From positions 1 to 38,041 of the IMG/VR virus record IMGVR_UViG_3300037132_000054: a stretch of 38,041 nt of DNA, one strand, 5' to 3'. The notes under the pieces were generated by a model that made no database searches, was not told the DNA's origin, and saw only the letters and a program-made list of their open reading frames with translations. Positions 8,121-38,041 of this stretch are shown in pieces; position 1 is the first letter of the stretch; every line of letters begins with the position of its first letter. The DNA is from a virus. The translations under genes and the position numbers were made by a program.

Positions 8121-8665
8121 TGCCAAGTCCCAAGACCCCTTCCGCCCGCACCCTGGCCAACCGCGCCAACCGCGTCGTGATGCACCACGATTCGCTCGAC
8201 CTGCTCCAGATGGGCATGGCCGACGGCTTTGCCGAACTCGGCCCCGTCATCATCGCGGACTACGCCGCCCACGCCCCACGCGACCCGGAGATCGCCCGCG
8301 AGCGCGGCGTCCCGATGATGGCCGACGCGGGCTCCTGGCAGGTCTGGGCGCTCGGCAAACGCGCCGCCGGCGACTGGCAGGCCAAGCCCCGCGGCGTAGG
8401 TTCGGTCAAGAACGAGGTGGTGCTGATCGTGCAGGTCAACTCCCCGATCGCCCACTTCGCCGAGCTCGGCACGGTCAACGAGGCCGCCCGGCCGTCTCTG
8501 CTGCCCGCGTTCATTCGCCACATCCCAGACGCCGGCAAGTTCGTCGTCCCCGCGATGGGCAAGCGTATGAAGCTCGGCAGGCTCGGGGCCACCGTCGCCA
8601 CCGCCATGGGCTATCGCGTTGGACAGCAGGGCGGCGTCCAAGGCGTAATCCGGAGGAAGTCATGA
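8120..8665 (+). CDS. Tail completion/connector protein (HK97 gp10-like)
   Basis: A 181-residue protein placed where HK97 gp10-type proteins are found. The segment 'GAPRDPEIARERG'-like chemistry is replaced here by 'HAPRDPEIARERGVP'. Then come 'VQVNSPIAHFAELGTVNEA' and 'ARPSLLPAFIRH', the characteristic 'A.F.E.GT....P.PFLRPA' pattern of the family. These proteins join the tail to the head-closure ring. Start overlaps the previous stop (TGATG); end overlaps the fibre gene start. Confidence 0.75.
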   Translation: MPSPKTPSARTLANRANRVVMHHDSLDLLQMGMADGFAELGPVIIADYAAHAPRDPEIARERGVPMMADAGSWQVWALGKRAAGDWQAKPRGVGSVKNEVVLIVQVNSPIAHFAELGTVNEAARPSLLPAFIRHIPDAGKFVVPAMGKRMKLGRLGATVATAMGYRVGQQGGVQGVIRRKS

Positions 8666-10116
8666 GCATTCACCACGCCCCCATCGCAGGAGCCAAGGTC
8701 CAAGTCGACCCGGACTACACCGCTGCCCACGATCTCGGCGGCGAGTCGCTCGTCACCCCCGACCAGCGCGCCGCGCTCGACGCCAACACGACGCTATCCG
8801 GGACGAACCCCGTGGCGAGCATGGCAGATGTGGGTTCCTCGCCCTACGCCGGTACCACGCCCGATGCTCCAGTCGCGCTCGCTCCGGTGGACTATCTGCT
8901 CTCGACGCTCAACGGTGACACGCCGCCCGCGGCAACCTACGACGACGCGGCCGGGACGCTCACGGAAACTGATCCGACCGATGGCGTCCTCTCGGCCGAT
9001 GGGCATGCGCCGACCGTCGGCCAGCGCATCCTGTGGTACTACAACAACTCATCCGACCAGAACGGCGTCGCGCACGGCATCTATGTCGTCACCAATCCCG
9101 GTAACGGAACCGATACGCCCTGGGTGCTGACTCGCGCCGCCGACTGCGACAGCATCGCCAAGCGCTGCCGGTACTGGGGCGTGGGCATTCTGTCGGGCAC
9201 GAAGTTCGCCGCTGGCTCCGCTCGTGTCACTGTCTTTGACGCCGGGGGTGGTTGGTTCGATGCCTCTCTAGCCGCCTCCGGGAACGTCTCGACCGCCTCC
9301 GGGAACTACTCGTCCGCCTGGGGGAACGGCTCGTCCGCCTCCGGGAACGGCTCGACCGCCTGGGGGAACGGCTCGACCGCCGCCGGGAACGGCTCGTCCG
9401 CCGCCGGGAACTACTCGTCCGCCGCCGGGAACTACTCGTCCGCCGCCGGGAACTACTCGTCCGCCGCCGGGAACTACTCGTCCGCCGCCGGGAACGGCTC
9501 GACCGCCTCCGGGAACTACTCGTCCGCCGCCGGGAACGGCTCGACCGCCTCCGGGAACTACTCGTCCGCCGCCGGGAACGGCTCGACCGCCTCCGGGAAC
9601 GGCTCGACCGCCGCCGGGAACTACTCGTCCGCCTCCTCTGATGGTCAGGTGGCCGATGCCGCTTGCCCGCAGAACGGGAGCAGCGGCCTCGGCCAGCACA
9701 GCCGGATAGCCCTGACCCGTGGCACTACCGAAGACGTCCCCGCGACTCTAAGCAACTCCGGCAACTCCAGCGGCTTTACCTTCTGCGACACGGATCAGGT
9801 CGCTGACTACACCAGGACCGCGGTAATCAAAGGGACCGTGGTGGCGCGTGAGTCGGATACACTCGGCACCGACTCGGCCTGGTCATTCGCGGGCGTCATT
9901 CGCGGCGACGGTTCGACGGCGTACTCATGGGTCGGTGGCTCCGCCCCAAGCCCAACAGTGATCGCGCAGGATGCCGGAGCCTCCGCATGGGCCGTAGCCG
10001 TGACAATCAGCGGCGCGACCATCGTCGTGACCGCGACCGGTGCCGTTGCCACGAGCATAAACTGGGTCTGCGACCTCGAAGTGGTCGAGATCGCCAGCCC
10101 CGGCGGTCCCTCATGA
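8662..10116 (+). CDS. Fibre-like protein with YadA-head-type heptad repeats
   Basis: A 484-residue protein encoded within the head-tail joining block. The N-terminal 30-80 residues are a fibre-like anchor. A beta domain follows ('GIYVVTNPGNGTDTPWVLTR', about residues 134-153), a pattern common in phage tail fibres. Residues 207-325 are 17 tandem seven-residue units of the type G-N-(Y/G)-S-(S/T)-A-(A/S/W). These resemble the left-handed beta-roll repeats of YadA/Hia trimeric adhesin heads. The last about 120 residues form another beta domain. It is probably a trimeric host-binding or head/neck fibre. Its location before the tail terminator, rather than at the tail tip, hints at a neck or capsid fibre. 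Confidence 0.75.
   Translation: MSIHHAPIAGAKVQVDPDYTAAHDLGGESLVTPDQRAALDANTTLSGTNPVASMADVGSSPYAGTTPDAPVALAPVDYLLSTLNGDTPPAATYDDAAGTLTETDPTDGVLSADGHAPTVGQRILWYYNNSSDQNGVAHGIYVVTNPGNGTDTPWVLTRAADCDSIAKRCRYWGVGILSGTKFAAGSARVTVFDAGGGWFDASLAASGNVSTASGNYSSAWGNGSSASGNGSTAWGNGSTAAGNGSSAAGNYSSAAGNYSSAAGNYSSAAGNYSSAAGNGSTASGNYSSAAGNGSTASGNYSSAAGNGSTASGNGSTAAGNYSSASSDGQVADAACPQNGSSGLGQHSRIALTRGTTEDVPATLSNSGNSSGFTFCDTDQVADYTRTAVIKGTVVARESDTLGTDSAWSFAGVIRGDGSTAYSWVGGSAPSPTVIAQDAGASAWAVAVTISGATIVVTATGAVATSINWVCDLEVVEIASPGGPS
9280..9636 (+). repeat. 21-bp in-frame tandem repeat, 17 units
   Basis: Seventeen 21-bp units encode seven residues each. Two main variants alternate (GGGAACTACTCGTCCGCC.. and GGGAACGGCTCGACCGCC..), with early units varied to Trp. 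The near-identity of units 7-17 at DNA level points to recent expansion by slippage or unequal recombination. There are no unique spacers, so it is not a CRISPR array. Confidence 0.95.
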
Positions 10117-21716: not shown

Positions 21717-22241
21717 ATGGACATCGCCACGGCCCGCGAGCGCCACACCGAGTACATGCGCCTCTGGCGTGTCCGCAACCGCGAGCATGCCCGTGAGATC
21801 GACCGCGCCTATCGCGAGCGGCATCCAGATCGCGTTCGGGAGGCGAGGCGACAGGAATACGCGAAGCACGCGACCAAATACCGCGAGGCCGCGCGGGCGT
21901 GGCGCCTCGCCAACATCGAAAGAGTCCGCGCCACGGAGGACTCCTGGCGGGCAGACCACCCGGAGGAGATGCGCGAATACCGACGCCTCTACGCCGTCAA
22001 ACAGAGAGGCGCGACCGTGATCGAGGTCACGCCCCTCGTGTGGGCTGCCATCAAAGAGGCCTACGGCGGCCGGTGCGCTTATTGCGGCACGGCCGGGCGG
22101 ATCGAGCAGGACCACGTCATTCCGCTCTCGCGCGGCGGCCAGCACACGATCGACAACGTCGTACCGGCCTGCCGGTCGTGCAATGCCCGCAAGGCGCAGG
22201 GGCCGGCGCCTGATTTTCAGCGGAAAGCGTGGGGCAAGTAG
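21717..22241 (+). CDS. HNH endonuclease with long helical N-terminus
   Basis: A 174-residue protein. The first about 100 residues form a charged, Arg/Glu-rich helix with repeated 'YRERHPDRVREARRQEYAK'-type segments, common before HNH domains of phages. Residues 115-160 are the HNH core: C120-x2-C123, D132-H133 in 'DHVIPLSRGG', N147, and C152-x2-C155 in 'CRSCNARKA'. Probably a free-standing homing nuclease. ATG lies two bases after the upstream stop. Confidence 0.88.
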   Translation: MDIATARERHTEYMRLWRVRNREHAREIDRAYRERHPDRVREARRQEYAKHATKYREAARAWRLANIERVRATEDSWRADHPEEMREYRRLYAVKQRGATVIEVTPLVWAAIKEAYGGRCAYCGTAGRIEQDHVIPLSRGGQHTIDNVVPACRSCNARKAQGPAPDFQRKAWGK

Positions 22242-22243
22242 CC

Positions 22244-22891
22244 ATGACGCTCTACAAAGCAACCGACGTCCAGGGTCGCTCGTTCCACGATCCCGCGGTG
22301 ACGTGGGCTGTCGGGGAAGTCACAACGCATCCGACCTCGACGGCGATGGTGCCGAACGACGCCTCGACATACCTCTCGGCCTCATCCGAGCCTGCCGACT
22401 GCAACAGCTTTGTCTGGCCGTGCCGTCTGTTCGAGGTTGAGCCGGTCGGTGAAGTACTCGACGGCATGGATTACCCCAACAAGCGAGCGGCACTCGCGTT
22501 CCGCGTCGTGCGGGAACTTCCGGGCCACGACGCGCTCGGACCCAACGGGGCCGCAGTGGCAGCGTTTATCTTGCGCTGCAAGAGGTTGACGCCAGACGAG
22601 GCCCGGAAGTTAGGAGCCGCCTGGGCCGCCGCCAGGGACGCCGCCTGGGCCGCCGCCAGGGACGCCGCCTGGGCCGCCGCCAGGGACGCCGCCTGGGCCG
22701 CCGCCAGGGACGCCGCCTGGGCCGCCGCCAGGGACGCCGCCAGGGACGCCGCCTGGGCCGCCGCCAGGGACGCCGCCTGGGCCGCCGCCAGGGACGCCGC
22801 CTGGGCGCTCCTTGTCCAGGACAAGATCGCGCCCGAGCAGTTCGACACCCTCACCAAGCCCTGGCGCGACGCCGGACTGGATCTTGCGTGA
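22244..22891 (+). CDS. Hypothetical protein with AAWAAARD repeats (DUF7666-like)
   Basis: A 215-residue protein. Its N-terminus ('LYKATDVQGRSFHDPAV', 'TWAVGEVTTHP', 'LFEVEPVGEVLD') resembles a domain annotated DUF7666 in many phage and bacterial proteins, here recalled rather than searched. Residues about 125-187 are a run of eight-residue units A-A-W-A-A-A-R-D (five, one short AARD, two more), forming a long amphipathic helix or solenoid. A short C-terminal domain ends 'DTLTKPWRDAGLDLA'. Function unknown. ATG was preferred over an in-frame GTG at 22229 inside the HNH gene. Confidence 0.7.
   Translation: MTLYKATDVQGRSFHDPAVTWAVGEVTTHPTSTAMVPNDASTYLSASSEPADCNSFVWPCRLFEVEPVGEVLDGMDYPNKRAALAFRVVRELPGHDALGPNGAAVAAFILRCKRLTPDEARKLGAAWAAARDAAWAAARDAAWAAARDAAWAAARDAAWAAARDAARDAAWAAARDAAWAAARDAAWALLVQDKIAPEQFDTLTKPWRDAGLDLA
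22616..22795 (+). repeat. 24-bp tandem repeat encoding AAWAAARD
   Basis: Near-identical 24-bp units (GCCGCCTGGGCCGCCGCCAGGGAC type) occur five times, then a 12-bp half unit, then twice more. The identity at DNA level and the half unit point to recent expansion and contraction by slippage. It keeps the reading frame. Confidence 0.9.
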
Positions 22892-27869: not shown

Positions 27870-28808
27870 ATGGCCATCCGACACCTGCCCGACAGCGGGC
27901 TATTCCCCGAGATCGAAGCGCGCGAGTTCGTCCAGAGCGACGAGGTCGCGGCGCTCGCAAAGGACGTTATGAGGGCCCACGAGGCCGGGCCCCAGGCGAT
28001 CAACGCGATCACCGGCCTCTCGATCGTCGTGCGCAACGAAGAGATCCACGTCCTGTACCTGCTCAACCACAAGCCCTTCGACCCACTCAAGGACGAGTAC
28101 CACCACGACGTCGTGGCGAAGGCGATCAAGGCCCCGACGCTCTGGCGGGACGTGACCGGCTACGACGCGGTCGTGTGGATCCGCTCGTACTTCTGGACGC
28201 TGTTCGAGCCCCGCAAGCGCTCCGCGGTGATGCTCCACGAGCTGCTCCACTTCGAGGTTGAGCGCGACCCCGACAGCGACGAAGTCAAGCTCCGAATCGC
28301 CCACCACGACGTCGAGGAGTTCGCCACGGTGATGCGCTTCTACGGCGCGATCGACGGCGCGCGCGAATCGATGGTCAAGGCGTTCGGACTCTGGCAGGCG
28401 GACGGCGGCAAGCCGGTCACGGAGCCGAAGCCGCTGCGCTCGGTCGAGCAGTTGGCGGCGGACATCGAAGGCATGCCGGCCGAGCCCCAAGACGCGCTGC
28501 GCAGCGTCGTGCGGGCACTCGCAAGCGAGCAGCGGGCCGATGGGCGAGTCGTTGACCCGGAGACAGGCGAGATCGTGCCTCAGGCGCTCGTGGATGCCGC
28601 TCGCGCGGTTCTGAACGTTGCTCCCGGCACGAGCATCACGGTCACTTCCGCTCGTACGGGGGAATCCTTCACGGCTGGCACGCCGCTCTGCGTCAACGGT
28701 GCCTGTGCGCTGGAGGCGGGACACGATGGGCCATGCAAGCCGCCCTCGATCGACGACACCGCGGCCCCGGACGAGGCGGACGACGACAGCGACGACCTGC
28801 TGCCATGA
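27870..28808 (+). CDS. Putative phage metallopeptidase (HEXXH)
   Basis: A 312-residue protein. It has the zincin motif H123-E-L-L-H127 in 'AVMLHELLHFEVE', followed by 'HHDVEEFATVMRFYG' with acidic residues suited as a third ligand. This is the pattern of the family called putative phage metallopeptidase. The C-terminal about 120 residues are a separate part: a helix, then 'CVNGACALEAGHDGPC' with three Cys, and an acidic tail. Substrate unknown. A strong AGGAGAGG site and a 33-base gap precede it. Confidence 0.8.
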   Translation: MAIRHLPDSGLFPEIEAREFVQSDEVAALAKDVMRAHEAGPQAINAITGLSIVVRNEEIHVLYLLNHKPFDPLKDEYHHDVVAKAIKAPTLWRDVTGYDAVVWIRSYFWTLFEPRKRSAVMLHELLHFEVERDPDSDEVKLRIAHHDVEEFATVMRFYGAIDGARESMVKAFGLWQADGGKPVTEPKPLRSVEQLAADIEGMPAEPQDALRSVVRALASEQRADGRVVDPETGEIVPQALVDAARAVLNVAPGTSITVTSARTGESFTAGTPLCVNGACALEAGHDGPCKPPSIDDTAAPDEADDDSDDLLP

Positions 28809-29341
28809 GCGAGAACATGGCCCAACGCGCTGCCGAGGTGAACACGATGGCCCACCGCCGGGGCGCGTACGGGCGGATCAGCGCCAACGACATTAGGGCC
28901 CTGGTAGCTCGCTACGAAGGCCGGTGCGTCTTCTGTGGCGTAGAGACGATGGGCATCGACCATGACCTTCCGATCGTGCTCGGCGGCCGCAACGTCCCCG
29001 AGAACCTACAGCTGTGCTGCAAGCGATGCAACGAGCGGAAGAATCGGCGCACGAGCGAGCAGTTCATCGCGGGCCAGTGCACGAAGGGCCATTCCAAAGC
29101 CGAGCGGAGCCAGACCCAGCGGGTGATCGTCTGCCTCACCTGTGCGCGTGAGCGGCAGCAACGACACCGCGCAGGTCAGCCCCACCGTGAGCGTCTTCGG
29201 CGGACGCACTGTAAGCAGGGTCACCCCTTCGCGGGTGAAAACCTTCGGCTGAACGGCCGAGGCGTCCAGGTCTGCCTGGCGTGCGCCCGCGATGCGGATC
29301 GCCGCTATAAGGAAGCCCACCGAAAGGTCGCGTCGGCATGA
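28805..29341 (+). CDS. HNH endonuclease with two extra Cys/His knuckles
   Basis: A 178-residue protein. The HNH core occupies residues 35-80: C41-x2-C44, D52-H53 in 'IDHDLPIVLGG', and C72-x2-C75. After it, two related metal modules repeat: C92-x3-H96 with C110-x2-C113, and C136-x3-H140 with C157-x2-C160 ('GRGVQVCLAC'). These C-x3-H...C-x2-C units probably grip DNA. The duplication is visible by eye. Overlaps upstream by ATGA. Confidence 0.85.
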   Translation: MSENMAQRAAEVNTMAHRRGAYGRISANDIRALVARYEGRCVFCGVETMGIDHDLPIVLGGRNVPENLQLCCKRCNERKNRRTSEQFIAGQCTKGHSKAERSQTQRVIVCLTCARERQQRHRAGQPHRERLRRTHCKQGHPFAGENLRLNGRGVQVCLACARDADRRYKEAHRKVASA

Positions 29342-29676
29342 CCGCTTTGCATGTCGCAGTCACCGCCGCCGACATCGAAGCCGCCAACGGCCAGTCACGC
29401 GCCGAATGGTGGGCCTGGCCCGTCAAGCGGGCGCTGGAGGGCCTCGCGGGCGTAGACGTCGACATTGACGCGGGAGGGGGCATCGGCGGTGGTGAGCCGT
29501 TCTGTATCGCCAGCTTTGGCGCTAAGGAGCCCGCGACGCTCGTCGTGGAGCTGCCGCCGGACGCCACGGCCTGGCTGGACGCCCGCTGGGAAGCGATCAA
29601 CGAGCGCACGCCCGGAGAGCCGTTCGAGTTCGAGCTGATCCTGCCCGCCTGGCTGGTGGGGCTGGTGCGGCGATGA
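29338..29676 (+). CDS. Hypothetical protein
   Basis: A 112-residue protein, not recognised. 'SRAEWWAWPVKRALEGLAG' and 'FEFELILPAWLVGLVRR' are aromatic and hydrophobic stretches, with a Gly-rich turn ('DAGGGIGGGEP') between. Coupled to both neighbours by ATGA. Confidence 0.55.
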   Translation: MTALHVAVTAADIEAANGQSRAEWWAWPVKRALEGLAGVDVDIDAGGGIGGGEPFCIASFGAKEPATLVVELPPDATAWLDARWEAINERTPGEPFEFELILPAWLVGLVRR

Positions 29677-30035
29677 GGAATATCTCGTTCTCGATGACCA
29701 CCGAGGCCGTGCGTCGTCACGAGAAGACCGTCACGCGCCGCCTCGGTTGGTGGAACCTCAAGCCCGGAGAAGTCCTGCAAGCCGTCGAGAAGGCGCAGGG
29801 GCTCAAGAAGGGCGAACACGTCAAGCCGATCTGCCTGATCCGGGTGGTGTCGAGCACGGATGAGTCGCTGGACGCGATTACGGAGCGGGCCGATGGAGCA
29901 GACGAATGCCGCCGCGAAGGCTTCCCCGACCTGTCGCCGATTGGCTTCGTTGAGATGTTCCAGGCGGCCAACGCCCGCGACTGCCCCTACTTCGACACCA
30001 TCGTCAACCGGATCGAGTTCGAGTACGTCCCATGA
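29673..30035 (+). CDS. ASCH-like domain protein
   Basis: A 120-residue protein matching the small phage ASCH-type fold: 'SFSMTTEAVRRHEKTVTRRL' at the start, 'WWNLKPGEVLQAVEK', 'LIRVVSSTDESLDAIT' and 'DTIVNRIEFEYV' at the end. ASCH and PUA-like domains bind RNA or modified nucleotides. Phage members are of unknown target. Neighbours include a PolX-like protein, suggesting nucleic-acid work. Confidence 0.7.
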   Translation: MRNISFSMTTEAVRRHEKTVTRRLGWWNLKPGEVLQAVEKAQGLKKGEHVKPICLIRVVSSTDESLDAITERADGADECRREGFPDLSPIGFVEMFQAANARDCPYFDTIVNRIEFEYVP

Positions 30036-30607
30036 GCACCGGCACGCGCTATAGCCTCGCCGAAGCCCAGCGCATCGCGGGGCAGATCGTTGGCCAACTC
30101 GACCCGTCCTGCGAGCGCCTCGTGATCGCGGGCTCCATCCGCCGGCGCCGGCCCGACGTAGGCGACATCGAGCTCGTGGCCCTCCCGCGTTTCATCGAGG
30201 AGCCGTCCGGCCTGTTCGAGACGGTGCAGGTCAGCCTGCTAGACCGTGCCCTGGCCCGCGAGGAGCGCGACCAGGTCCTCGAGCGGATCTCCGGCGGCGA
30301 TCGCTACGTCAAGCTGCGCCACGTTCGGAGCGGGCTCCAGGTCGATTTGTTCGTAGTTCTGAGCCCGGCACAGTGGGGCGCGATCCTCACGATTCGGACA
30401 GGCCCGGCGGATTACAGCCAGCGCCTGGTGACCCTCGCACGACGGCAGGGCAACCACGAGGCCGGCGGGGCGCTGCGCCTGGGCCTGCGTGACCACTCGA
30501 CGCCTGCCGAAAAGGTGTGCACCTGCCCCGTCATCCCGACCCCGGAGGAGCGCGACTTCTTCGCCGCCCTGGGCCTCGCGTACGTCGAGCCGGAAGCGCG
30601 CCTATGA
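30032..30607 (+). CDS. PolX-like nucleotidyltransferase
   Basis: A 191-residue protein with the catalytic pattern of DNA polymerase beta-like transferases: 'IAGSIRRRRPDVGDIELVA' holds G34-S35 and the metal ligands D45 and E47. 'LQVDLFVV' supplies the third acidic residue D105. 'TGPADYSQRLVTLAR' and 'IPTPEERDFFAALGL' match the thumb end of PolX. The 8-kDa lyase domain and helix-hairpin-helix motifs are missing, so it is a short form. It could fill gaps in repair or add nucleotides to ends; activity is inferred. Confidence 0.82.
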   Translation: MSTGTRYSLAEAQRIAGQIVGQLDPSCERLVIAGSIRRRRPDVGDIELVALPRFIEEPSGLFETVQVSLLDRALAREERDQVLERISGGDRYVKLRHVRSGLQVDLFVVLSPAQWGAILTIRTGPADYSQRLVTLARRQGNHEAGGALRLGLRDHSTPAEKVCTCPVIPTPEERDFFAALGLAYVEPEARL

Positions 30608-31056
30608 CGAGCGAAGTCCACTTCGAGCGCGCGTTCGGCCTCTACAGCGGCGGCCGTCGCCCCGCCTACAAACCCCAGCGCACGGAGCCGCTCGTCACGC
30701 AGGCTCCCAAGGAGATCCGTCACATGGCAAGCACCACGACCGCGATCACGGCCCCCTGCGGCTCCTGCGCCCACGAGCCCGTCTGCATCCGCACGGTGGC
30801 CGTCAGACAGTTGGCCGGCCACGTCGACGTGAACACGGTCCCGATGCCGCCCGGGCTGACGATCGCCATCAGAGCCACGATCGAGTGCGACGCCTACATG
30901 GCGGTCAAGGGGCTCGGACGCGGCGGACTTCTCCCGCGACGCGGCGTAGGGCTGCCAGGGCGCGTGCGGACTGACGAGGACCGCGCCAAGGCCAGTGAGC
31001 GACGTCTCGCGCAGGTTGCCGCCAAGCGCGGCCCGAATGAAGCGGACGCTGAGTAG
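30604..31056 (+). CDS. Cys-containing hypothetical protein
   Basis: A 150-residue protein. The middle has 'APCGSCAHEPVCIRTVAVR' and later 'ATIECDAYMA', four Cys of a likely metal site. An internal ATG at 30724 preceded by AAGGAGA may mark a shorter, better start, giving about 110 residues. The C-terminus is charged. Not recognised. Confidence 0.6.
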   Translation: MTSEVHFERAFGLYSGGRRPAYKPQRTEPLVTQAPKEIRHMASTTTAITAPCGSCAHEPVCIRTVAVRQLAGHVDVNTVPMPPGLTIAIRATIECDAYMAVKGLGRGGLLPRRGVGLPGRVRTDEDRAKASERRLAQVAAKRGPNEADAE

Positions 31057-31058
31057 CC

Positions 31059-31355
31059 ATGATCGCCCGTCACGGCATCCGCGAGACCCCGGACGGCATC
31101 GAAGTCATGTGTGACGCCTGCGCCGAATGGTGGCCGCCGACGTGTGAGTTCTGGCCCCGGACTTCGCCGGACCGGAACCGCCGCCTGTCGTTCGCTCGTT
31201 GCCGCGCATGTCACAACGCCCAAGCACGCCGGCGCTTCGCGAGCCCCGTAGCTCGTGTGCGCCGCGCAGCCGCTCAGGCCAAGTACCGCGCGGCCAATCT
31301 CGTGAGCGTCCGTTTCAAGGAGCGCGAGCGCATGCGCGCCAGGAGGGCTGCATGA
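31059..31355 (+). CDS. Small zinc-finger-like protein
   Basis: A 98-residue protein with 'MCDACAEWWPPTCEFWP' and 'ARCRACHNAQARRRF': two Cys pairs in a treble-clef-like arrangement. A long basic helix follows. It resembles the metal-binding half of HNH-type proteins without a DH motif. Possibly a DNA-binding protein. Located directly upstream of the helicase loader. Confidence 0.65.
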   Translation: MIARHGIRETPDGIEVMCDACAEWWPPTCEFWPRTSPDRNRRLSFARCRACHNAQARRRFASPVARVRRAAAQAKYRAANLVSVRFKERERMRARRAA

Positions 31356-31984
31356 CGGCCATGACACTCGAAACCATCCTGTCGCGCTCAGGAGTCCCGT
31401 CCCGCTTCCTGGACCGCCAGCTGGACACATTCACCGCGGGCAAGATCACGGGCGGCTCCCGGGCGCTGCTGGCGTGCCGTGGACTCGTGGACACGCCCAC
31501 CGGGCTCATCCTCACCGGGCCTACCGGCGTGGGCAAGACGCACCTCGTGGCGGGCATCCTCGCGGCCCGATCGGAGGCGTGGCTGGCGAAGTACCCGACG
31601 CCTGCGGTGGAGCTGGCGGACCGTCGCATGGCCGTTCGGCCGCCCTTCACGGACCGCTTCGCCAACGTGGCGGACCTGCTCGACCGCATCAACGTCTGGT
31701 ACCGCGGCGACGCCGAAGACCCCCTGCCGGAGCTGGCAACGGCGGACCTGTTGGTGCTCGATGACCTCGGCCGGGAGAAGTCCACGGAGCGCACGGCGGA
31801 GCGGCTGTACGTGCTGGTGAACCGCCGATACGAGGCCAAGTTGCCGACTGTGGCGACGACGAATTACACCGTCGCGGACCTCTGCGACCGGGGTTACGAC
31901 GTGATCGTCAGCCGTATCCTCGAGGACGGCGGGCACGTCGTGAAGCTCGGCCTGGTGGCCGAAGACCAGCGGATGGCGCGATGA
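31352..31984 (+). CDS. DnaC-like helicase loader ATPase
   Basis: A 210-residue AAA+ ATPase. Walker A 'GPTGVGKT' (56-63), Walker B 'LLVLDDLG' (133-140), sensor 'ATTN' (168-171) and an arginine in 'VSRILED' match DnaC/DnaI/IstB-type loaders. It would place the host DnaB helicase on the phage origin with the initiator encoded next door, as lambda P does. A good AGGAGG site precedes ATG; a second in-frame ATG three codons on is an alternative. No helicase gene was seen in the window, so host helicase is probably used. Confidence 0.88.
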   Translation: MTAMTLETILSRSGVPSRFLDRQLDTFTAGKITGGSRALLACRGLVDTPTGLILTGPTGVGKTHLVAGILAARSEAWLAKYPTPAVELADRRMAVRPPFTDRFANVADLLDRINVWYRGDAEDPLPELATADLLVLDDLGREKSTERTAERLYVLVNRRYEAKLPTVATTNYTVADLCDRGYDVIVSRILEDGGHVVKLGLVAEDQRMAR

Positions 31985-32868
31985 CTCAGGACCGCTTCGT
32001 GCTCGTCCATTACGACCAAATCGCGCGAGATTCTCGCTTCGATTCGATCAGAAACGACGATAAAGCGCTCGGTTTGTGGCAGCGTTTGCTCTGGTTAGCC
32101 GACGCAATGTGGCCACTTCCCGCGCCGATTCCGGGTTGGGCCAGCCGCTCAACTCTCGCCAAACTCACAGCGAAAGAATGCGGTCTGATCGAGATTCTGC
32201 CCGAGCATTTGTTCCGGGTTCACGGCCTCGATCGCGAGCGGGAACGCCGCGCCGCAAAGGGAAAACCGGGTGCTAGGACCCGCTGGGGCGATGCGAACGC
32301 ATCGCCACCACCGCCGACAGACGCAGATGCGAAGCCAGATGCGAACGCAGATGCGAAGCCAGATGCGAACGCAGATGCGATCGGACATGCAAAGGCACAT
32401 GCGAACGCATCACCGAACGCAAATGCGAACGGAGTGGGATCGCGCGCGCGGGAGATAGAGAGGGGAGATAGAGATAGAGAATCTAGAACTCCTAGCGCAC
32501 GTACTAAGCCTGTCGAGCCGAGGCGCGCGCGACCTGCCGGATGGGATGACGCTGTCGCCTATCTGGCGGGGCGATCGGTGTACGTCGCGGAGTCGTCCGC
32601 CAATGGGCACGTCGAGCACCTGAGTCGGTTGCTTGAGCAGCACGGCTGGGCCGACGTCCGATCGACGTTCGACACGATCGCGCCTCGCTGTCACGAGTTG
32701 CGCCAGTTCGTGCTGGGCGCCGACAACCGGCTGAACCAGATCCCCGAAGCGGCCAACGGCAAGGCGCCGAGCATCGACGCGCACAAGTACGACCACCTCG
32801 TGGAAGAGGGCGACGACTTCGCAGCCCCTGACGCGATGGACACGGACTACATCGGCGGTGCGCGATGA
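31981..32868 (+). CDS. Replication initiator-like protein
   Basis: A 295-residue protein. Residues 1-85 look like a winged-helix domain of phage initiators ('DDKALGLWQRLLWLADAMWP', 'SRSTLAKLTAKECGLIEIL'). Residues about 104-152 are a low-complexity Asp/Ala/Asn/Lys linker encoded by 12-bp repeats. Residues 180-260 form a helical domain ('WDDAVAYLAGRSVYVAESS', 'RLLEQHGWADVRSTFDTIA'). It lies directly after the helicase loader, as O precedes P in lambda but in the reverse order. The first third has noticeably more A/T at third positions than neighbours, suggesting a different source or constraint from an embedded origin. Confidence 0.7.
   Translation: MTQDRFVLVHYDQIARDSRFDSIRNDDKALGLWQRLLWLADAMWPLPAPIPGWASRSTLAKLTAKECGLIEILPEHLFRVHGLDRERERRAAKGKPGARTRWGDANASPPPPTDADAKPDANADAKPDANADAIGHAKAHANASPNANANGVGSRAREIERGDRDRESRTPSARTKPVEPRRARPAGWDDAVAYLAGRSVYVAESSANGHVEHLSRLLEQHGWADVRSTFDTIAPRCHELRQFVLGADNRLNQIPEAANGKAPSIDAHKYDHLVEEGDDFAAPDAMDTDYIGGAR
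32291..32434 (+). repeat. Phased 12-bp iterons in the initiator gene
   Basis: ATGCGAA starts at 32291, then at 32327, 32339, 32351, 32363, with variants at 32375 (ATGCGAT) and 32387 (ATGCAAA), again at 32399, a degenerate unit at 32411, and at 32423. All are in one 12-bp register. The regular register and core resemble origin iterons that bind an initiator dimer. Confidence 0.85.
32450..32507. other. A-rich tract next to the iterons, candidate unwinding element
   Basis: Directly after the iterons comes a purine-rich, A-rich run (GGAGATAGAGAGGGGAGATAGAGATAG in two parts, then AGAATCTAGAACTCC). It is one of the least GC-rich stretches in the coding part of the window. Beside iterons, such a tract is the usual place where an origin melts. 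Together with the repeats it is a candidate replication origin inside the initiator gene. Confidence 0.5.
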
Positions 32869-33278
32869 GCGCCTGGTGGGATACCGAGCGGGAACTGCCG
32901 GTGGCGCCCGAGCCACGGACCTGCCTGCTCTGTGGCCTCGAGGCGACGTCGGCGACGATCTGGCTCAAGCCCGCCTGGTGGCGGGAGCCGCTCGACGGCC
33001 GTGAGGTCACGACGATCCCGCGCTGCCTCGACATCGACGCCTGCCGCCGCCGAGTGGCTGACGCCGGCGAGCGCTGGCTGCTGCTCGAGACCGGCGAGGA
33101 GCCGGGACGGCGGCGCCGCGAAGAGATCGGCTCAACGGGCGCCCCGATCGCACCCCGTCCAGCTCGAGGGCTGGTCCCACCGCTCGTCCCGAGCGAGCCC
33201 ATGCAGGCGCCACAGCCGGCGCCACCCGATGCAGACGTCGATGAGGAGGCCCCCGTTGGAATACCGGATTACTTCTAG
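32865..33278 (+). CDS. Cys-containing hypothetical protein
   Basis: A 137-residue protein. 'RTCLLCGLEATS' and 'RCLDIDACRRRV' carry two Cys pairs likely to bind zinc. The C-terminal 50 residues are Pro-rich and end acidic. Not recognised. ATGA overlap with the initiator gene. Confidence 0.6.
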   Translation: MSAWWDTERELPVAPEPRTCLLCGLEATSATIWLKPAWWREPLDGREVTTIPRCLDIDACRRRVADAGERWLLLETGEEPGRRRREEIGSTGAPIAPRPARGLVPPLVPSEPMQAPQPAPPDADVDEEAPVGIPDYF

Positions 33279-33293
33279 CGCTGAGGAGACGCG

Positions 33294-33488
33294 ATGAACC
33301 CGAACACTGGCGAGATCAAGCGCAATCCGACGGCCGAAGAAGCCGCCGCGTTCTCGGTCGCCCTGACGGAGCAGGAGGCCGCCTACCTGCGGCACATCCG
33401 CAAGACCGAGCGTGTCGCGGCCCTCGCCAAGCGACGCGAGGAGCACCCGATCAAGTTCAGCCAGACGCACCGCCGCAAGCACCGATGA
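33294..33488 (+). CDS. Small charged hypothetical protein
   Basis: A 64-residue helical protein ('AAAFSVALTEQEAAYLRHIR'), basic at its C-terminus ('FSQTHRRKHR'). A GAGGAG site precedes the ATG and its stop overlaps the RusA-like gene. It may act with that resolvase; unknown. Confidence 0.55.
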   Translation: MNPNTGEIKRNPTAEEAAAFSVALTEQEAAYLRHIRKTERVAALAKRREEHPIKFSQTHRRKHR

Positions 33489-33994
33489 GCGCCGAGCCCG
33501 TCGCCTTCGTCGTCCGGGGCGTTCCAGTGCCGCAGGGCAGCTCGCGGGCCTTCGTCGGCAAGGGCAAGAACGGCAAGCCGCGGGCCTTCGTCGCGACCGA
33601 GGCCCACACGGACTCGCCGCTCGGGTCCTGGCGGACGGCGATCGCGCAAGAGGCGCGTGAGGCCATGGGCGATCGACCCTTGCTCGAGGGGCCGCTCAAG
33701 GTCTGGCTGACGTTCGTCTTCCCCCGGCCGGCGAGCCACTTCCTGCCGGCGAACAGTCGACGACCCGTCCGCGAGCTCCGCGCCGACGCTCCGACCTACC
33801 TCTGCACAAAGCCTGACCTCGACAAGCTCCTCCGCGCCGCCCTGGACGCCATGACGGGCGTCGTGTGGCGCGACGACGGCCAGGTCGCGGCCTTCGGACA
33901 CCCGCAGAAGATCTACGAGACGGCACTCGAGCAGCAGCCGCCGGCGATGACTCACCGACCCGGCGTCGAAGTCCACGTGAGGCCGATCGGATGA
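33485..33994 (+). CDS. rusA: RusA-type Holliday junction resolvase
   Basis: A 169-residue protein of the RusA family: 'VPVPQGSSRAFV' at the start, 'GPLKVWLTFVFPRP' strand, and the catalytic acidic run 'TKPDLDKLLRAALDAM' followed by 'VVWRDDGQV' (D111, D113, D130, D131). It cuts four-way DNA junctions formed in recombination and replication, which would debranch DNA before packaging. Fits the recombination genes upstream. Confidence 0.93.
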   Translation: MSAEPVAFVVRGVPVPQGSSRAFVGKGKNGKPRAFVATEAHTDSPLGSWRTAIAQEAREAMGDRPLLEGPLKVWLTFVFPRPASHFLPANSRRPVRELRADAPTYLCTKPDLDKLLRAALDAMTGVVWRDDGQVAAFGHPQKIYETALEQQPPAMTHRPGVEVHVRPIG

Positions 33995-34203
33995 GCGGTC
34001 GGCTGCGACGTGCCCGAATGTCGGCACAGCGCCGGCGCTGCGTCTTCCTCGTGGCGCGTGATCCCGCCTCCCTGGCACCGCGTGGCGACCTGGTTCCCTG
34101 TGGCCGAATAGCCAACCAGCACCCTGTCGCCGATCGGGGCCGATTCGGAAACCATCTCTACCCGATCTTCGTCGACCTTTCCCCGCGGAACGCCCGCCCA
34201 TGA
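33991..34203 (+). CDS. Small basic hypothetical protein
   Basis: A 70-residue protein, Arg-rich at the start ('GRLRRARMSAQRRRC'). The rest resembles 'VPCGRIANQHPVADRGRFGN', without known family. ATGA overlaps with both neighbours argue for expression. Confidence 0.45.
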   Translation: MSGRLRRARMSAQRRRCVFLVARDPASLAPRGDLVPCGRIANQHPVADRGRFGNHLYPIFVDLSPRNARP

Positions 34204-34361
34204 CCAAGCTGCTGACGCTGCCGGAAGCCGCGGAGTGCCTGCGCGTGTCGCGGGCGACGCTGTTCCGACTGATCTCGTGGAGCGGGTCGCATCTAGTCTC
34301 ACTAACTCCCACCCGCTACCGCGATAGGGTCCCAGTTAGGGTCACGGCGGGCACCGCATGA
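34200..34361 (+). CDS. Excisionase-like short HTH protein
   Basis: A 53-residue protein in ATGA overlaps on both sides. 'LLTLPEAAECLRVSRATLFR' matches the helix-turn-helix of excisionase/AlpA/MerR-type (HTH_17) proteins. After 'LISWSGSH' the usual wing is replaced by a short, different end, so it is truncated or diverged. No integrase gene was seen, so a role in excision is doubtful; it may be a small regulator. Confidence 0.6.
   Translation: MTKLLTLPEAAECLRVSRATLFRLISWSGSHLVSLTPTRYRDRVPVRVTAGTA
34302..34339. promoter_or_regulatory. Imperfect inverted repeat in the HTH gene
   Basis: CTAACTCCCACCC (34302-34314) and GGGTCCCAGTTAG (34327-34339) pair at 10 of 13 positions around a 12-base centre. 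It lies within the excisionase-like gene and may be a protein-binding site or a chance pairing. Confidence 0.3.
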
Positions 34362-34900
34362 GGCCGGAGGAGTACGAGGCTTGCAGTCTCCGGCCCGAAG
34401 CGGTCCGCCACCTGACGCGCGAGCAGTGCCGCCTGGCCCGAATCTGCTGGTGGTGCGGGAAGGCCCTGACGGGGCGCCAGATCTACTGGTGCGGCTCGGG
34501 AGGGCATCGCCCCTGCGAGGGCGAATGGCGCCAACTCCACGACTGGACGACTGCCCGACCGGCCGCGATGGCGCGAGCGAACGGCCGGTGCCAGCGGTGC
34601 GGCGCCCGGGCGCACGAGGTCAACCATCGTGAACCGCTCGTGGGGCGCGGCTATCACTCCGGCTGCGTCCACCATCCGGACAACCTCGAACCGCTCTGCC
34701 ACGACTGCCACGTTGCGGAGACGACGAAGCAGCTCTACGACCGCCGTCAGCGCGACGTCGAGGCCGGCCGCGACTACGGGGGTCGTGCCGCTCGGCGACG
34801 CCTGGGCCTTCGGCCACTTCCCCCGTTCGCGACCGAAGAGGACATCGCCCGAATTGACGCGCTGCCGCCATCCCCGACTCTCTGGGACGAGACGGCATGA
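34358..34900 (+). CDS. HNH-type protein with an extra Cys cluster
   Basis: A 180-residue protein. The first part has C24, C30-x2-C33 ('ICWWCG'), C45 and C53, an added metal site. The second part is HNH-like: C78-x2-C81, 'AHEVNHREPLVGRGYHSGC' with H90, then 'HHPDNLEPLCHDCH' (N109, C114, C117, H118). The usual DH is replaced by NH, so cutting activity is uncertain. A charged tail follows. Confidence 0.78.
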   Translation: MRPEEYEACSLRPEAVRHLTREQCRLARICWWCGKALTGRQIYWCGSGGHRPCEGEWRQLHDWTTARPAAMARANGRCQRCGARAHEVNHREPLVGRGYHSGCVHHPDNLEPLCHDCHVAETTKQLYDRRQRDVEAGRDYGGRAARRRLGLRPLPPFATEEDIARIDALPPSPTLWDETA

Positions 34901-35199
34901 GGAACCCCACCGGCTCGCCGCGCGAGTGGGAGATCGCCGCCACGTATTGCCGGTACGGCTGCCACAAGGACACCGCGTCAGCGCTCGGGATCACGATCCC
35001 CACGGTCGGGAACGCCATGACGAACCTGTACCGCAAGTACGACGTTCACTCGCTGATCGAACTCGTGCAGATCGCCGGCTGGCTCCAGATCCCGCCTGAC
35101 AACATGCCAAAACGTAGTACACCCATACCGTTCCCCCGAGAGATAACCGCAGCTACTCTTTCGGGGATGTGCTCGCCTCGTCAGCCCGGCACGAAATGA
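34897..35199 (+). CDS. LuxR/GerE-type HTH regulator
   Basis: A 100-residue protein. Residues 7-62 are a LuxR-type HTH: 'SPREWEIAATYCRYGCHKD', 'ALGITIPTVGNAMTNLYRK' (recognition helix) and 'SLIELVQIAGW'. No receiver or sensor domain. It stands between the early genes and the lysis block, so it may control late or lysis genes. The last 35 residues are loose, and a CCCCGA/TCGGGG pair (35134-35139, 35161-35166) lies in them. Confidence 0.75.
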   Translation: MRNPTGSPREWEIAATYCRYGCHKDTASALGITIPTVGNAMTNLYRKYDVHSLIELVQIAGWLQIPPDNMPKRSTPIPFPREITAATLSGMCSPRQPGTK

Positions 35200-35354
35200 C
35201 ACCTGACCGCCCCGTCGGCCAGGGCGTCGCTGTGAACAGCCGTTCCCTCCTCTCCCGGTGCTGCTTGGAGCTGTCTATGACGGGGCCGCTCCAGCAGTGC
35301 CGCCTCATGCCCGGCGCTGACGCAAGGCAACCGTTGGGGTCGGGCACCCGATGA
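35196..35354 (+). CDS. Weak small ORF
   Basis: A 52-residue frame linking the HTH gene and the membrane protein gene by ATGA overlaps on both ends. Its composition is unremarkable and no motif was seen. The exact junctions are the only support, so it may be real or a coupling device. Confidence 0.3.
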   Translation: MTPDRPVGQGVAVNSRSLLSRCCLELSMTGPLQQCRLMPGADARQPLGSGTR

Positions 35355-35773
35355 CTCCCCGGAGGTCCCTTGTGCCCCTGACGCCTGAGAACGCCACCGG
35401 CAATGGTGTGCCGTCCACTGAGGACCTCATCACCGTCCAGGGCGTCTTCCTCCGCGAGATGGGCAGCCTGCGCAGCGAGATCATCGAGCGCATCGATGGC
35501 GTCTGCGACCGCCTGACGGACATCGAGACGGCTCGCAAGGTCGAAGCTGCCGTGGTGTTGGAACGTCAGGAAGTCGCCAGAAAGGCCGAGGCGGACCATG
35601 CCGCTCAGGCGGCAGAAGAGCGCCGCGCCGCCGCCGAACTTGCCGCGACCGTCCTCAAGAAGACCGAGACGAACATCCTCACCCGCCACTGGCGCGTCTC
35701 GCTCGCCGTCGCGGCGTTCTTCAGCGCCGGGAGTCTGGCGCTCGGCGTCCTGAACTTCGTGACTTCCCGATGA
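35351..35773 (+). CDS. Coiled-coil membrane protein of the lysis region
   Basis: A 140-residue protein: a long coiled coil (about residues 35-105, 'RSEIIERIDGVCDRLTDIET', 'AEERRAAAELAATVLKK'), then one membrane helix at the end ('VSLAVAAFFSAGSLALGVLN', 117-136). Placed before the peptidase and holin candidate. This resembles the tail-anchored membrane proteins often found in lysis cassettes. It could be a holin, a spanin-like part, or unrelated. Confidence 0.6.
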   Translation: MTPRRSLVPLTPENATGNGVPSTEDLITVQGVFLREMGSLRSEIIERIDGVCDRLTDIETARKVEAAVVLERQEVARKAEADHAAQAAEERRAAAELAATVLKKTETNILTRHWRVSLAVAAFFSAGSLALGVLNFVTSR

Positions 35774-35868
35774 ACCGCAACCTCGCCATCCGTCCGCGCT
35801 TGGTCGCCCTGACCGTAGGCGTCCTGGTCTTAGTGCTGGTGCTCCTGAGTGCCGGAGGCGCGTCGTGA
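35770..35868 (+). CDS. 32-residue membrane peptide
   Basis: A 32-residue protein, ATGA overlap upstream and GTGA overlap downstream. A basic start ('MNRNLAIRPR') is followed by one hydrophobic helix ('VALTVGVLVLVLVLLSAGG'). A holin-associated small membrane protein is possible. Confidence 0.55.
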   Translation: MNRNLAIRPRLVALTVGVLVLVLVLLSAGGAS

Positions 35869-36113
35869 GCGATTGGCTCCTCCTCCTCGGCTCGGCCCTC
35901 ATCGCGGGTTTCCTCTGGCTGTCCCGACCTCGCCCCAAGGCTGAGCCCCACGACGTGCTCGTGGGCCTCGGCGGACGGCCGGCTGACTACCCCGACGACT
36001 TCGACCGAGCAATCGGCACCGTCTCCTGGCGGCCGAACCCCGAATGGCCCATGTACCCGATCGAGATGGATGCCTCGCTCGCTGGCGAGCAGGGAGAGAC
36101 GGAGACACGATGA
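35865..36113 (+). CDS. Small membrane protein of the lysis region
   Basis: An 82-residue protein starting at GTG. One N-terminal membrane helix ('WLLLLGSALIAGFLWLS', residues 3-19) is followed by a soluble tail with several acidic residues. It overlaps the peptidase gene by ATGA. It may help holin or anchor to the membrane; unknown. Confidence 0.6.
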   Translation: MSDWLLLLGSALIAGFLWLSRPRPKAEPHDVLVGLGGRPADYPDDFDRAIGTVSWRPNPEWPMYPIEMDASLAGEQGETETR

Positions 36114-37228
36114 CGCTCAAACTCGGCTGCCGCCCGCCAATCAACAAGCCCGCCCTGCGGCTCGGGGACTTCCTGACCGGCGTCCTGCCTGCCACGCCGC
36201 CCGTCGACTACCTCGCCCGCCTGTCCGCCTGGCAGATGCTCGGGAACGACCGCTACGGCGATTGCGTGGCTGTGACGTGGGCCAACGTCAAGCGGCTGTG
36301 CTCGGCGCTCCTGACCGGCAAGGAGATCTACCCGACCCTCGCCGACGTCCTGGCGCTGTACAAGACGCAGAACCCGAACTTCCCCGCCCAAGACAACGGC
36401 ATGGACATCCAGACGCTGCTCGAGTACCTCCAGAAGCGCGGGGACATCGTGGCGTTTGCCACCGTCGATCGCTCAAACAATGCCGAGGTCGACGCGGCGA
36501 TCTCGCTATTCGGCTTCGTGTGGACCGCAATCAACGTCCGCGTCGCCTCGATGGCGGACTTCAACGCAGGCCGACCGTGGTCCTACCACGCCACGAGCCC
36601 GATCGAAGGCGGCCACAGCATCATCTCGGGCGGGCATCGCGACGTAGCAGCCAACGACGTGCGCTTCGTCACGTGGGCCGCCGAGACGGGGTTCACTGCC
36701 GACTTCTGGGCGCACGACGTGGTCCAGACCTGGATCGTCATCCTGCCCGAGCACCTCGGCTCCGCGACGTTCATGGCCGGGATCGACCTGCCGGCACTCG
36801 CCGACTGCTACCACGAGCTCACGGGACGGACGCTGCCGATCCCGACCCCCCCACCCACCCCGACGCCGCCACCGACTCCGGCGCCAATCCCGGAGGCCGA
36901 AATGCAACTCCTCGCCAAGCCCGTCCGCATCTTCGACGGCGCCGTCGCGGCCAACGTCGGCAAACTCGTCAGCGTCGCGGGTGTCTTTGGCATCCCCGAC
37001 CAGGCGATCGGCGTGTCGTGCATCGTCCGAGTGGTCAACCCGCTCAAGGCAGGCTGGGTCTACTGCGGTCCCGGTCCTGTGCCGAGCAACGTTTCGACGC
37101 TCGACTTCGGGGCCGGCGTCATCACTGACGGCTTCCCCACGGTCGCGCTGACGAACGGCCAGCTCACCGTTCTCTCAACCGTGGCTATCCCCCGGTTCGT
37201 CGTGGACGTGACCGGGTACTTCGAGTAG
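36110..37228 (+). CDS. Papain/C39-like cysteine peptidase with surface-binding C-domain
   Basis: A 372-residue protein in the lysis region. Residues about 30-215 read as a papain/C39-like peptidase: 'GNDRYGDCVAVTWANVKRL' has the catalytic C52; 'SPIEGGHSIISGGHRD' has H169; 'RFVTWAAETGFT' and 'VVQTWIVI' finish the fold. A Pro/Thr linker (245-262) leads to a beta domain ending 'PRFVVDVTGYFE', the 'VDVTGYF' pattern of repeats common in cell-wall-linked proteins of Gram-positive-type bacteria. It may be a lysin cutting peptide bonds in the wall, or a virion or host-surface protease. The gene starts in an ATGA overlap and has no signal peptide. Confidence 0.78.
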   Translation: MTLKLGCRPPINKPALRLGDFLTGVLPATPPVDYLARLSAWQMLGNDRYGDCVAVTWANVKRLCSALLTGKEIYPTLADVLALYKTQNPNFPAQDNGMDIQTLLEYLQKRGDIVAFATVDRSNNAEVDAAISLFGFVWTAINVRVASMADFNAGRPWSYHATSPIEGGHSIISGGHRDVAANDVRFVTWAAETGFTADFWAHDVVQTWIVILPEHLGSATFMAGIDLPALADCYHELTGRTLPIPTPPPTPTPPPTPAPIPEAEMQLLAKPVRIFDGAVAANVGKLVSVAGVFGIPDQAIGVSCIVRVVNPLKAGWVYCGPGPVPSNVSTLDFGAGVITDGFPTVALTNGQLTVLSTVAIPRFVVDVTGYFE

Positions 37229-37237
37229 GAGGACGTC

Positions 37238-37588
37238 ATGAGCCAATTCATCGCCAACCTGCACAACGCCTGGCTCGCTCTCGACCCAGGCATCCGAGCA
37301 GCCCTCAGCTTCTCCGCTGCCGTCTTGCTCGCTGCCGCCATCGGACTCGTTCAGGGCTTCGGATGGGTCATCCCGGCATCCGTGGTCGATGCCAAAGGCG
37401 AGGTGATCGCCTTCCTGACCTACGCCGTGCCGGTCCTGGCCGTCCTGGTCGCCCAGCTCGTGCGCTCGAAGATCGCTCCGGCGTTCGTGGCCTGGTTCAT
37501 GTCGACGTTCGGCTACGCGCCGGCCTACAAGGTTCAGACGCCATCCGCCGGCGGTCTTCGCCGCTCGGACATCTGGGTCCGGGCCTAA
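37238..37588 (+). CDS. Holin candidate
   Basis: A 116-residue protein with a GGAGG site before ATG. Two membrane helices: 'ALSFSAAVLLAAAIGLVQGF' (about 22-41) and 'VIAFLTYAVPVLAVLVAQLV' (about 56-75). They are followed by a shorter amphipathic part and a basic tail. This fits a two-helix holin that makes pores to let the lysin reach the wall. It follows the peptidase gene, which supports the call; sequence alone cannot prove it. Confidence 0.7.
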   Translation: MSQFIANLHNAWLALDPGIRAALSFSAAVLLAAAIGLVQGFGWVIPASVVDAKGEVIAFLTYAVPVLAVLVAQLVRSKIAPAFVAWFMSTFGYAPAYKVQTPSAGGLRRSDIWVRA

Positions 37589-37592
37589 CCAC

Positions 37593-37865
37593 ATGCACAC
37601 GGCCCAGCGCACAGCGCAGGACGTAGCGGGCATCTCGGCGTCCGCGTCGCGCAACCGACGCGCCCGAGTAGCACCGCAATCTGACCTTGGGGCCGATCGC
37701 CCCGCGCCCGCCCGGGATATGGCGGGCACTTCTCCTGACGCAATGGCACCGACGCTCGACCACATCATCGCCTTGGCGAATGGGGGGACGCACGAACCGG
37801 CCAATTGCCAACTCGCTCACTTCATATGCAACTCGCTCAAGGGCGATCGCGAGTGGGTGATGTAG
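37593..37865 (+). CDS. HNH protein lacking its first Cys pair
   Basis: A 90-residue protein. 'PTLDHIIALANGGTHEPANC' holds D56-H57 and N71, and 'LAHFICNSLKGDR' has H76, C79 and N80. This is the typical end of phage HNH nucleases, but the N-terminal Cys pair is missing. It may be truncated or a variant. With the genome end close by, it could be the counterpart of the HNH beside terminase. Confidence 0.65.
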   Translation: MHTAQRTAQDVAGISASASRNRRARVAPQSDLGADRPAPARDMAGTSPDAMAPTLDHIIALANGGTHEPANCQLAHFICNSLKGDREWVM

Positions 37866-38041
37866 GTGGCGATCTATGCATTCGGTATCCGTCTATGCAG
37901 ATCACGAGTGTATCGCCCGATTCATGAGGGCTACTCGTGCATTAGGCCACATGCCGTAACAGCCTACGAAAGCAAGGTGGTAAGCAGCCCAGTACCACGT
38001 ACTGGGGGCAGGTACACAGTAAGTGCCTCACGCTCACGGAC
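37866..38041. other. Gene-free right end with inverted repeats
   Basis: This end has no gene and more A/T than the rest. It contains CACGAGT/ACTCGTG (37903-37909, 37933-37939), and CCCAGTAC CAC GTACTGGG (37988-37995, 37999-38006), a tight hairpin. GATC-TATGCA and TATGCA-GATC lie as mirrored flanks at 37871-37903. Candidates are a packaging or cohesive-end site or a promoter region; no -35/-10 pair was convincing and no tRNA was found. Confidence 0.55.

Follow-up and report, generated by a model that had tools for sequence, protein, structure and literature searches.

A probable lambda-like replication origin within an unclassified putative initiator gene of an uncultured phage

The DNA analysed here, referred to as the window, is a full virus record of 38041 bp. 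The segment from 32290 to about 32511 is probably the phage's replication origin, a lambda-like in-gene origin of the theta type that would be bound by an unclassified initiator. It has the hallmarks of a lambda-type in-gene origin, namely repeats within a putative initiator gene, an adjacent unstable tract and an adjoining loader gene. The features, all on the plus strand, are the following.

31352–31984, plus strand: DnaC-like helicase loader gene, 210 aa (phrog_50, E 2e-35; Pfam IstB_IS21, E 8e-12)
31981–32868, plus strand: putative replication initiator gene, 295 aa, adjoining the loader gene and carrying iterons in its linker
32290–32301, plus strand: outlying iteron GATGCGAACGCA, a full dyad in the 12-bp register of the main array
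32326–32433, plus strand: main iteron array of nine consecutive 12-bp units with the core ATGCGAA
32450–32511, plus strand: purine-rich, duplex-unstable tract by nearest-neighbour energy, a candidate DNA unwinding element
33485–33994, plus strand: RusA-like Holliday junction resolvase gene (phrog_140, E 3e-26; Pfam RusA, E 9e-16), context from the same early cluster

The word ATGCGAA occurs seven times on the plus strand of the window (32291, 32327, 32339, 32351, 32363, 32399 and 32423), and all seven copies fall within the single 295-aa frame and a single 12-bp register. The copy at 32291 lies exactly 3 × 12 bp upstream of 32327 and is thus in register with the main array. The minus strand has two copies (12341 and 22999), and there is no second cluster in the window. 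This window-wide count confirms the preliminary description, which had reported ATGCGAA at 32291 and from 32327 to 32423 in one 12-bp register with a few variants. The variant units inside the array are ATGCGAT (32375), ATGCAAA (32387) and CACCGAA (32411).

From 32321 to 32380, Tandem Repeats Finder reports a perfect 24-bp unit with 100% match, where the full dyad TGCGAACGCA alternates with a unit retaining the left arm only. This 4+2+4 dyad (TGCG-AA-CGCA) is found at 32292, 32340, 32364 and 32400, spaced by 48, 24 and 36 bp, and nowhere else in the window. Tested against synonymous-codon shuffles, the 7-mer repeat of the putative initiator gene is the strongest among the 39 window frames of at least 150 aa (P 0.005). 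Limiting 2000 shuffles to the gene itself is a stricter null, since the array contributes its codons to the pool, and it still gives P 0.002. Significance is confined to the TGCGAACGCA word; the number of 4+2+4 dyads of any sequence in the gene is not significant (10 vs 6.7, P 0.12). In blastn against phages, the array gives chance-level matches only.

The window has other tandem repeats. The second strongest 7-mer repeat (P 0.035) belongs to the 220-aa frame 22229–22891, where a 24-bp tandem repeat at 22616–22805 codes for AAWAAARD repeats, in frame and apparently at the protein level. In the structural half of the genome, a 42-bp tandem repeat at 9272–9636 codes for SGNYSSAAGNGSTA-type repeats in the frame 8662–10116.

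The 12-bp unit is an exact multiple of three, so the DNA repeat is translated into a DANA/DAKP protein repeat within a flexible linker. Its codons run against the phage's preference, with GAT over GAC by 6:1 for Asp, against 77% GAC among the phage's Asp codons. For Ala, the array has eight GCA, eight GCG and neither GCC nor GCT, while the phage uses GCC for 45% and GCA for 9%. When the same residues were drawn 20,000 times at the phage background codon usage, no draw gave seven ATGCGAA (mean 0.64, maximum 6). Moreover, 15 of the 16 differences from the consensus unit are non-synonymous, against a random expectation of 22% synonymous, and differences between units concentrate at unit positions 1 and 9–11, outside the core. 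A linker conserved for its residues should give the opposite pattern. The codon choice and the amino-acid-changing differences together argue that the repeat is maintained at the DNA level rather than the protein level. The earlier suggestion that the DANA/DAKP linker is a by-product of the DNA need therefore gains support from the codon choice, the replacement pattern and the off-frame occurrence of the same iteron elsewhere.

Downstream of the array, 32450–32507 has 38% A, 71% purine and 47% G+C, compared with the window mean of 67.5% G+C, and GGGAGATAGAGA is present twice within the purine-rich tract to 32511. Ranked by nearest-neighbour energy across the 38-kb window, no 40-bp stretch is less stable than 32455–32494, which begins about 25 bp beyond the last iteron. 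The minima for stretches of 30 and 60 bp also fall here, starting at 32465 and 32452, and at 80–100 bp the tract no longer ranks first. The preliminary description had an A-rich run at 32450–32507 following the array at once. The tract is better called purine-rich and starts about 20 bp past the last iteron core.

The loader gene starts at ATG 31352, with its frame open from TTG 31199, and its end overlaps the start of the putative initiator gene by 4 bp. Its product also matches phrog_3277 and phrog_26922, and scores under the NCBIfam equivalog cut-offs. The putative initiator has an N-terminal part of about 105 aa, a low-complexity linker at about 105–180 and a C-terminal part of about 115 aa. 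Its role is putative, resting on position and anatomy rather than homology. No match was found in Pfam, PHROGs, NCBIfam, PDB sequences or phage records, and tblastn of the phage records with the whole protein and its N-terminal 103 aa gave no homologue. Homologues are likewise absent from the IMG/VR and GTDB pattern scans and from 396 genomes of one phylum.

The best weak match to the initiator (L275) was rejected as it sits in an unrelated gene, and a degenerate DNA scan for the WPxPAPxP motif hit only unrelated frames. A single-sequence structure model is unusable because its mean pLDDT is 44. Two HNH endonuclease genes lie on either side of the early region (28733–29341 and 34358–34900). 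The window's terminase is nearest to actinobacteriophage terminases, at less than 30% identity.

Mechanistically, we infer initiator binding, melting, helicase loading and use as an origin from this arrangement. The 31981–32868 protein would bind the 12-bp units through the TGCG-AA-CGCA dyad and, once bound, would wrap or bend the array. It would then open the adjacent purine-rich tract at 32450–32511. The DnaC-like loader would in turn load the host's replicative helicase onto the opened strands.

In lambda, O binds mid-gene iterons beside an AT-rich tract required for unwinding (PMC7466680). As in lambda, the window has mid-gene repeats with the gene's least stable DNA on their 3′ side (25 bp away vs 13 bp in lambda), and a helicase-loader gene adjoins the putative initiator gene. 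Unlike lambda, the window's units are tandem and of 12 bp, whereas the four lambda iterons are of 18 bp and spaced 20–24 bp. The loader is DnaC-like and upstream in the window but P-like and downstream in lambda. The protein is also dissimilar to O, with no Pfam family including Phage_rep_O and a BLASTP E of 2.4. The earlier claim of a lambda-like origin is supported for the anatomy of iterons, unstable tract and adjoining loader gene. Relatedness to O is not supported.

The arrangement in SPP1 is comparable by description. Its gp38 binds repeats inside gene 38 and the loader gp39 loads the helicase gp40, and oriL inside gene 38 consists of direct repeats and an AT-rich unwinding element (PMC6316719). 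The window similarly has repeats and a candidate unwinding tract inside the putative initiator gene.

DUF1376 genes such as ydaU, next to ydaV in the Rac prophage, share the layout of an N-terminal domain, a repeat-bearing linker and a C-terminal part. They also share the neighbourhood, with ydaU beside a putative ATP-binding protein gene as the window gene is beside the loader gene. Rac is said to possess an active origin, oriJ (PMC3945230). The resemblance of the window protein's topology to DUF1376 is by eye only, as there is no PF07120 match and hhalign against eight DUF1376-type proteins gives a probability of 0.3%. The Rac ydaU iterons also differ from the window's, being TGTTCAAACA-like. 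In E. coli K-12 Rac (L402, 5009–5140), these TGTTCAAACA-like linker repeats are followed by the least stable 40 bp of ydaU. The window's system is probably lambda-like in function, and it can be assigned to neither lambda O nor DUF1376 by descent.

The same iteron is found in other genes. A strict three-copy pattern matched two IMG/VR contigs. One (L024) has the iteron in the linker of a DUF1376-type gene in a different frame (CERICEGTCEG; CERICEGTCEGIC). In the other (L023), it is intergenic, with TTATAG repeats next to it and a gene nearby that looks Lin1244-like by eye at its N-terminus. In the latter contig, the intergenic ATGCGAACGCA array at 1160–1275 is directly followed by the TTATAG repeats, a candidate origin outside the coding region. 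A looser scan gave a DUF1376-like gene (L168) with AATGCGAACGCATATGCGAACGG twice in different frames, read as AMRTHMRT in the N-terminal region and as NANAYANGHANA in the linker, and then a CCTACTTCC-repeat tract. These three were found through their arrays, so they show frame-independence and not frequency.

We also sampled 17 DUF1376 genes from 249 genomes with repeats disregarded. In two of them (L404 and L406), TGCGAACG-type iterons occur in several frames. Together with L024 and L168, this makes four non-Rac DUF1376-type genes with a TGCGAACGCA-type iteron. Three more genes of the sample (L408, L409 and L419) have other iterons, spaced 11 and 22 bp apart and alternating in frame. The 7-mer repeats of L408 and L409 strictly alternate between 11 and 22 bp and between reading frames, a very clean helical phasing. 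The window's spacing is 12 bp versus about 11 bp in many relatives, so its successive units are not on one helix face.

In an IMG/VR scan for three copies of ATGCNAA, the families among the 74 frames listed include DUF6291 (6), DUF1376 (5), Phg_2220_C (4) and Lin1244_N (1). A control scan with the core reversed has DUF7833, DUF6291 and Phg_2220_C once each among the 92 frames listed. This excess of replication-type Pfam families among the matches listed is suggestive, and the per-family counts may overlap.

Genes preceding DnaC-like loaders were tested at 12 loci, whose loaders are 27–41% identical to the window's and were fetched without regard to repeats. Significant repeats (P ≤ 0.05) occur in six of the 12 genes just upstream of the loader and in none of 84 control frames of the same loci (Fisher P 1e-6). 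The loci are not entirely independent of one another, L012 and L021 being related, and the control frames are mechanical. The repeats are mostly off-frame and often spaced near 11, 22 and 33 bp, for example 32/22/33 in L002 and 12/35/11 in L018, both in mixed frames. Genes chosen with no regard to repeats thus show this anatomy again, in the initiators of other phages as well as in lambda O, which supports the origin reading.

The polarity of iterons and then unstable DNA is also recurrent. In the positive controls, the gene's least stable 40-bp stretch starts 13 bp past the last annotated iteron in lambda O and 30 bp past sites chosen by inspection in Rac ydaU. It lies on the same side at a distance of 3–78 bp in L007, L012, L013, L018, L020, L021, L024, L168, L407, L408 and L419. 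The polarity fails in L002, L003, L006, L008, L010, L017, L404, L409 and L413.

Three other explanations have to be weighed. The array may be a low-complexity disordered linker, born from recent slippage duplication of the 24-bp unit, with no function for the repeat as DNA. In its favour, the middle 60 bp form a perfect 24-bp tandem, and bacterial genes outside replication commonly encode DANA/NANA-repeat proteins with ATGCGAA at 12-bp intervals. A scan of GTDB genomes for three copies of ATGCGAA gave 114 matches, most of them in generic DANA-type proteins, so an array is not proof by itself. However, recent duplication explains the perfect central part and not the divergent units, which retain ATGCGAA while 15 of 16 differences change residues. 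Nor does it fit the outlying copy at 32290 being in register despite unrelated intervening sequence, the genome-wide stability minimum directly after the array and the identical DNA word off-frame in other initiators. We consider functionless slippage unlikely.

The array could also be an operator where the protein or a repressor controls transcription of the early cluster, as dyad repeats equally fit repressor or autoregulator binding and initiators often autoregulate. We regard this as very improbable, since the array is mid-gene and not at a promoter, and since an origin would need the unstable tract and loader gene that adjoin it. The lack of a sigma-70-type promoter match at 28000–38041 points the same way, though weakly in a GC-rich phage. 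Alternatively, the gene may encode the initiator and the array may act as a secondary or copy-control site, with the working origin elsewhere. SPP1 has two origins and only one of them is inside gene 38 (PMC6316719), but the window has no other ATGCGAA cluster, and a screen of its tandem repeats gave no second site of repeats with an unstable tract. This possibility appears quite improbable.

Counting against the origin reading are the protein's lack of relatives and of an initiator family, the frequency of 12-bp ATGCGAA arrays in low-complexity bacterial genes other than initiators, the 12-bp unit spacing, the reversed gene order and the skew. The order of loader and then initiator (31352–32868) is the reverse of that in lambda, Rac and the 12 compared loci, where the initiator comes first. 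The cumulative GC skew falls nearly steadily to the right end without a turning point at 32.4 kb, so this check, proposed in the preliminary description, lends no support. A skew minimum, present or absent, is uninformative here because nearly all genes are on one strand. The proposal of the array as the replication origin is nevertheless supported by the array itself, the unstable tract, the polarity, the loader gene and the same anatomy in other initiators.

Unrelated initiator families, those of the window's orphan protein and DUF1376 with the Lin1244-like neighbour in L023 as a possible third, might share the iteron word TGCGAACGCA, either through undetectably distant homology of their DNA-binding parts or through a host factor that recognises it. 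We hold this as a doubtful idea. If true, the in-gene origin would be a general, frame-independent rule in phages with DnaC-like loaders, and origins would be predictable from sequence alone.

In summary, the likely replication origin of an uncultured phage is narrowed to about 220 bp, and a protein without a match in any family library gains a proposed role. The surrogate tests point to a general rule, by which the initiator gene beside a DnaC-like loader often hides phased linker repeats in any frame, followed by the gene's least stable DNA. Such a rule would make sense of many puzzling low-complexity linkers in proteins of phages, and gives a means of predicting origins and naming initiators without homology.
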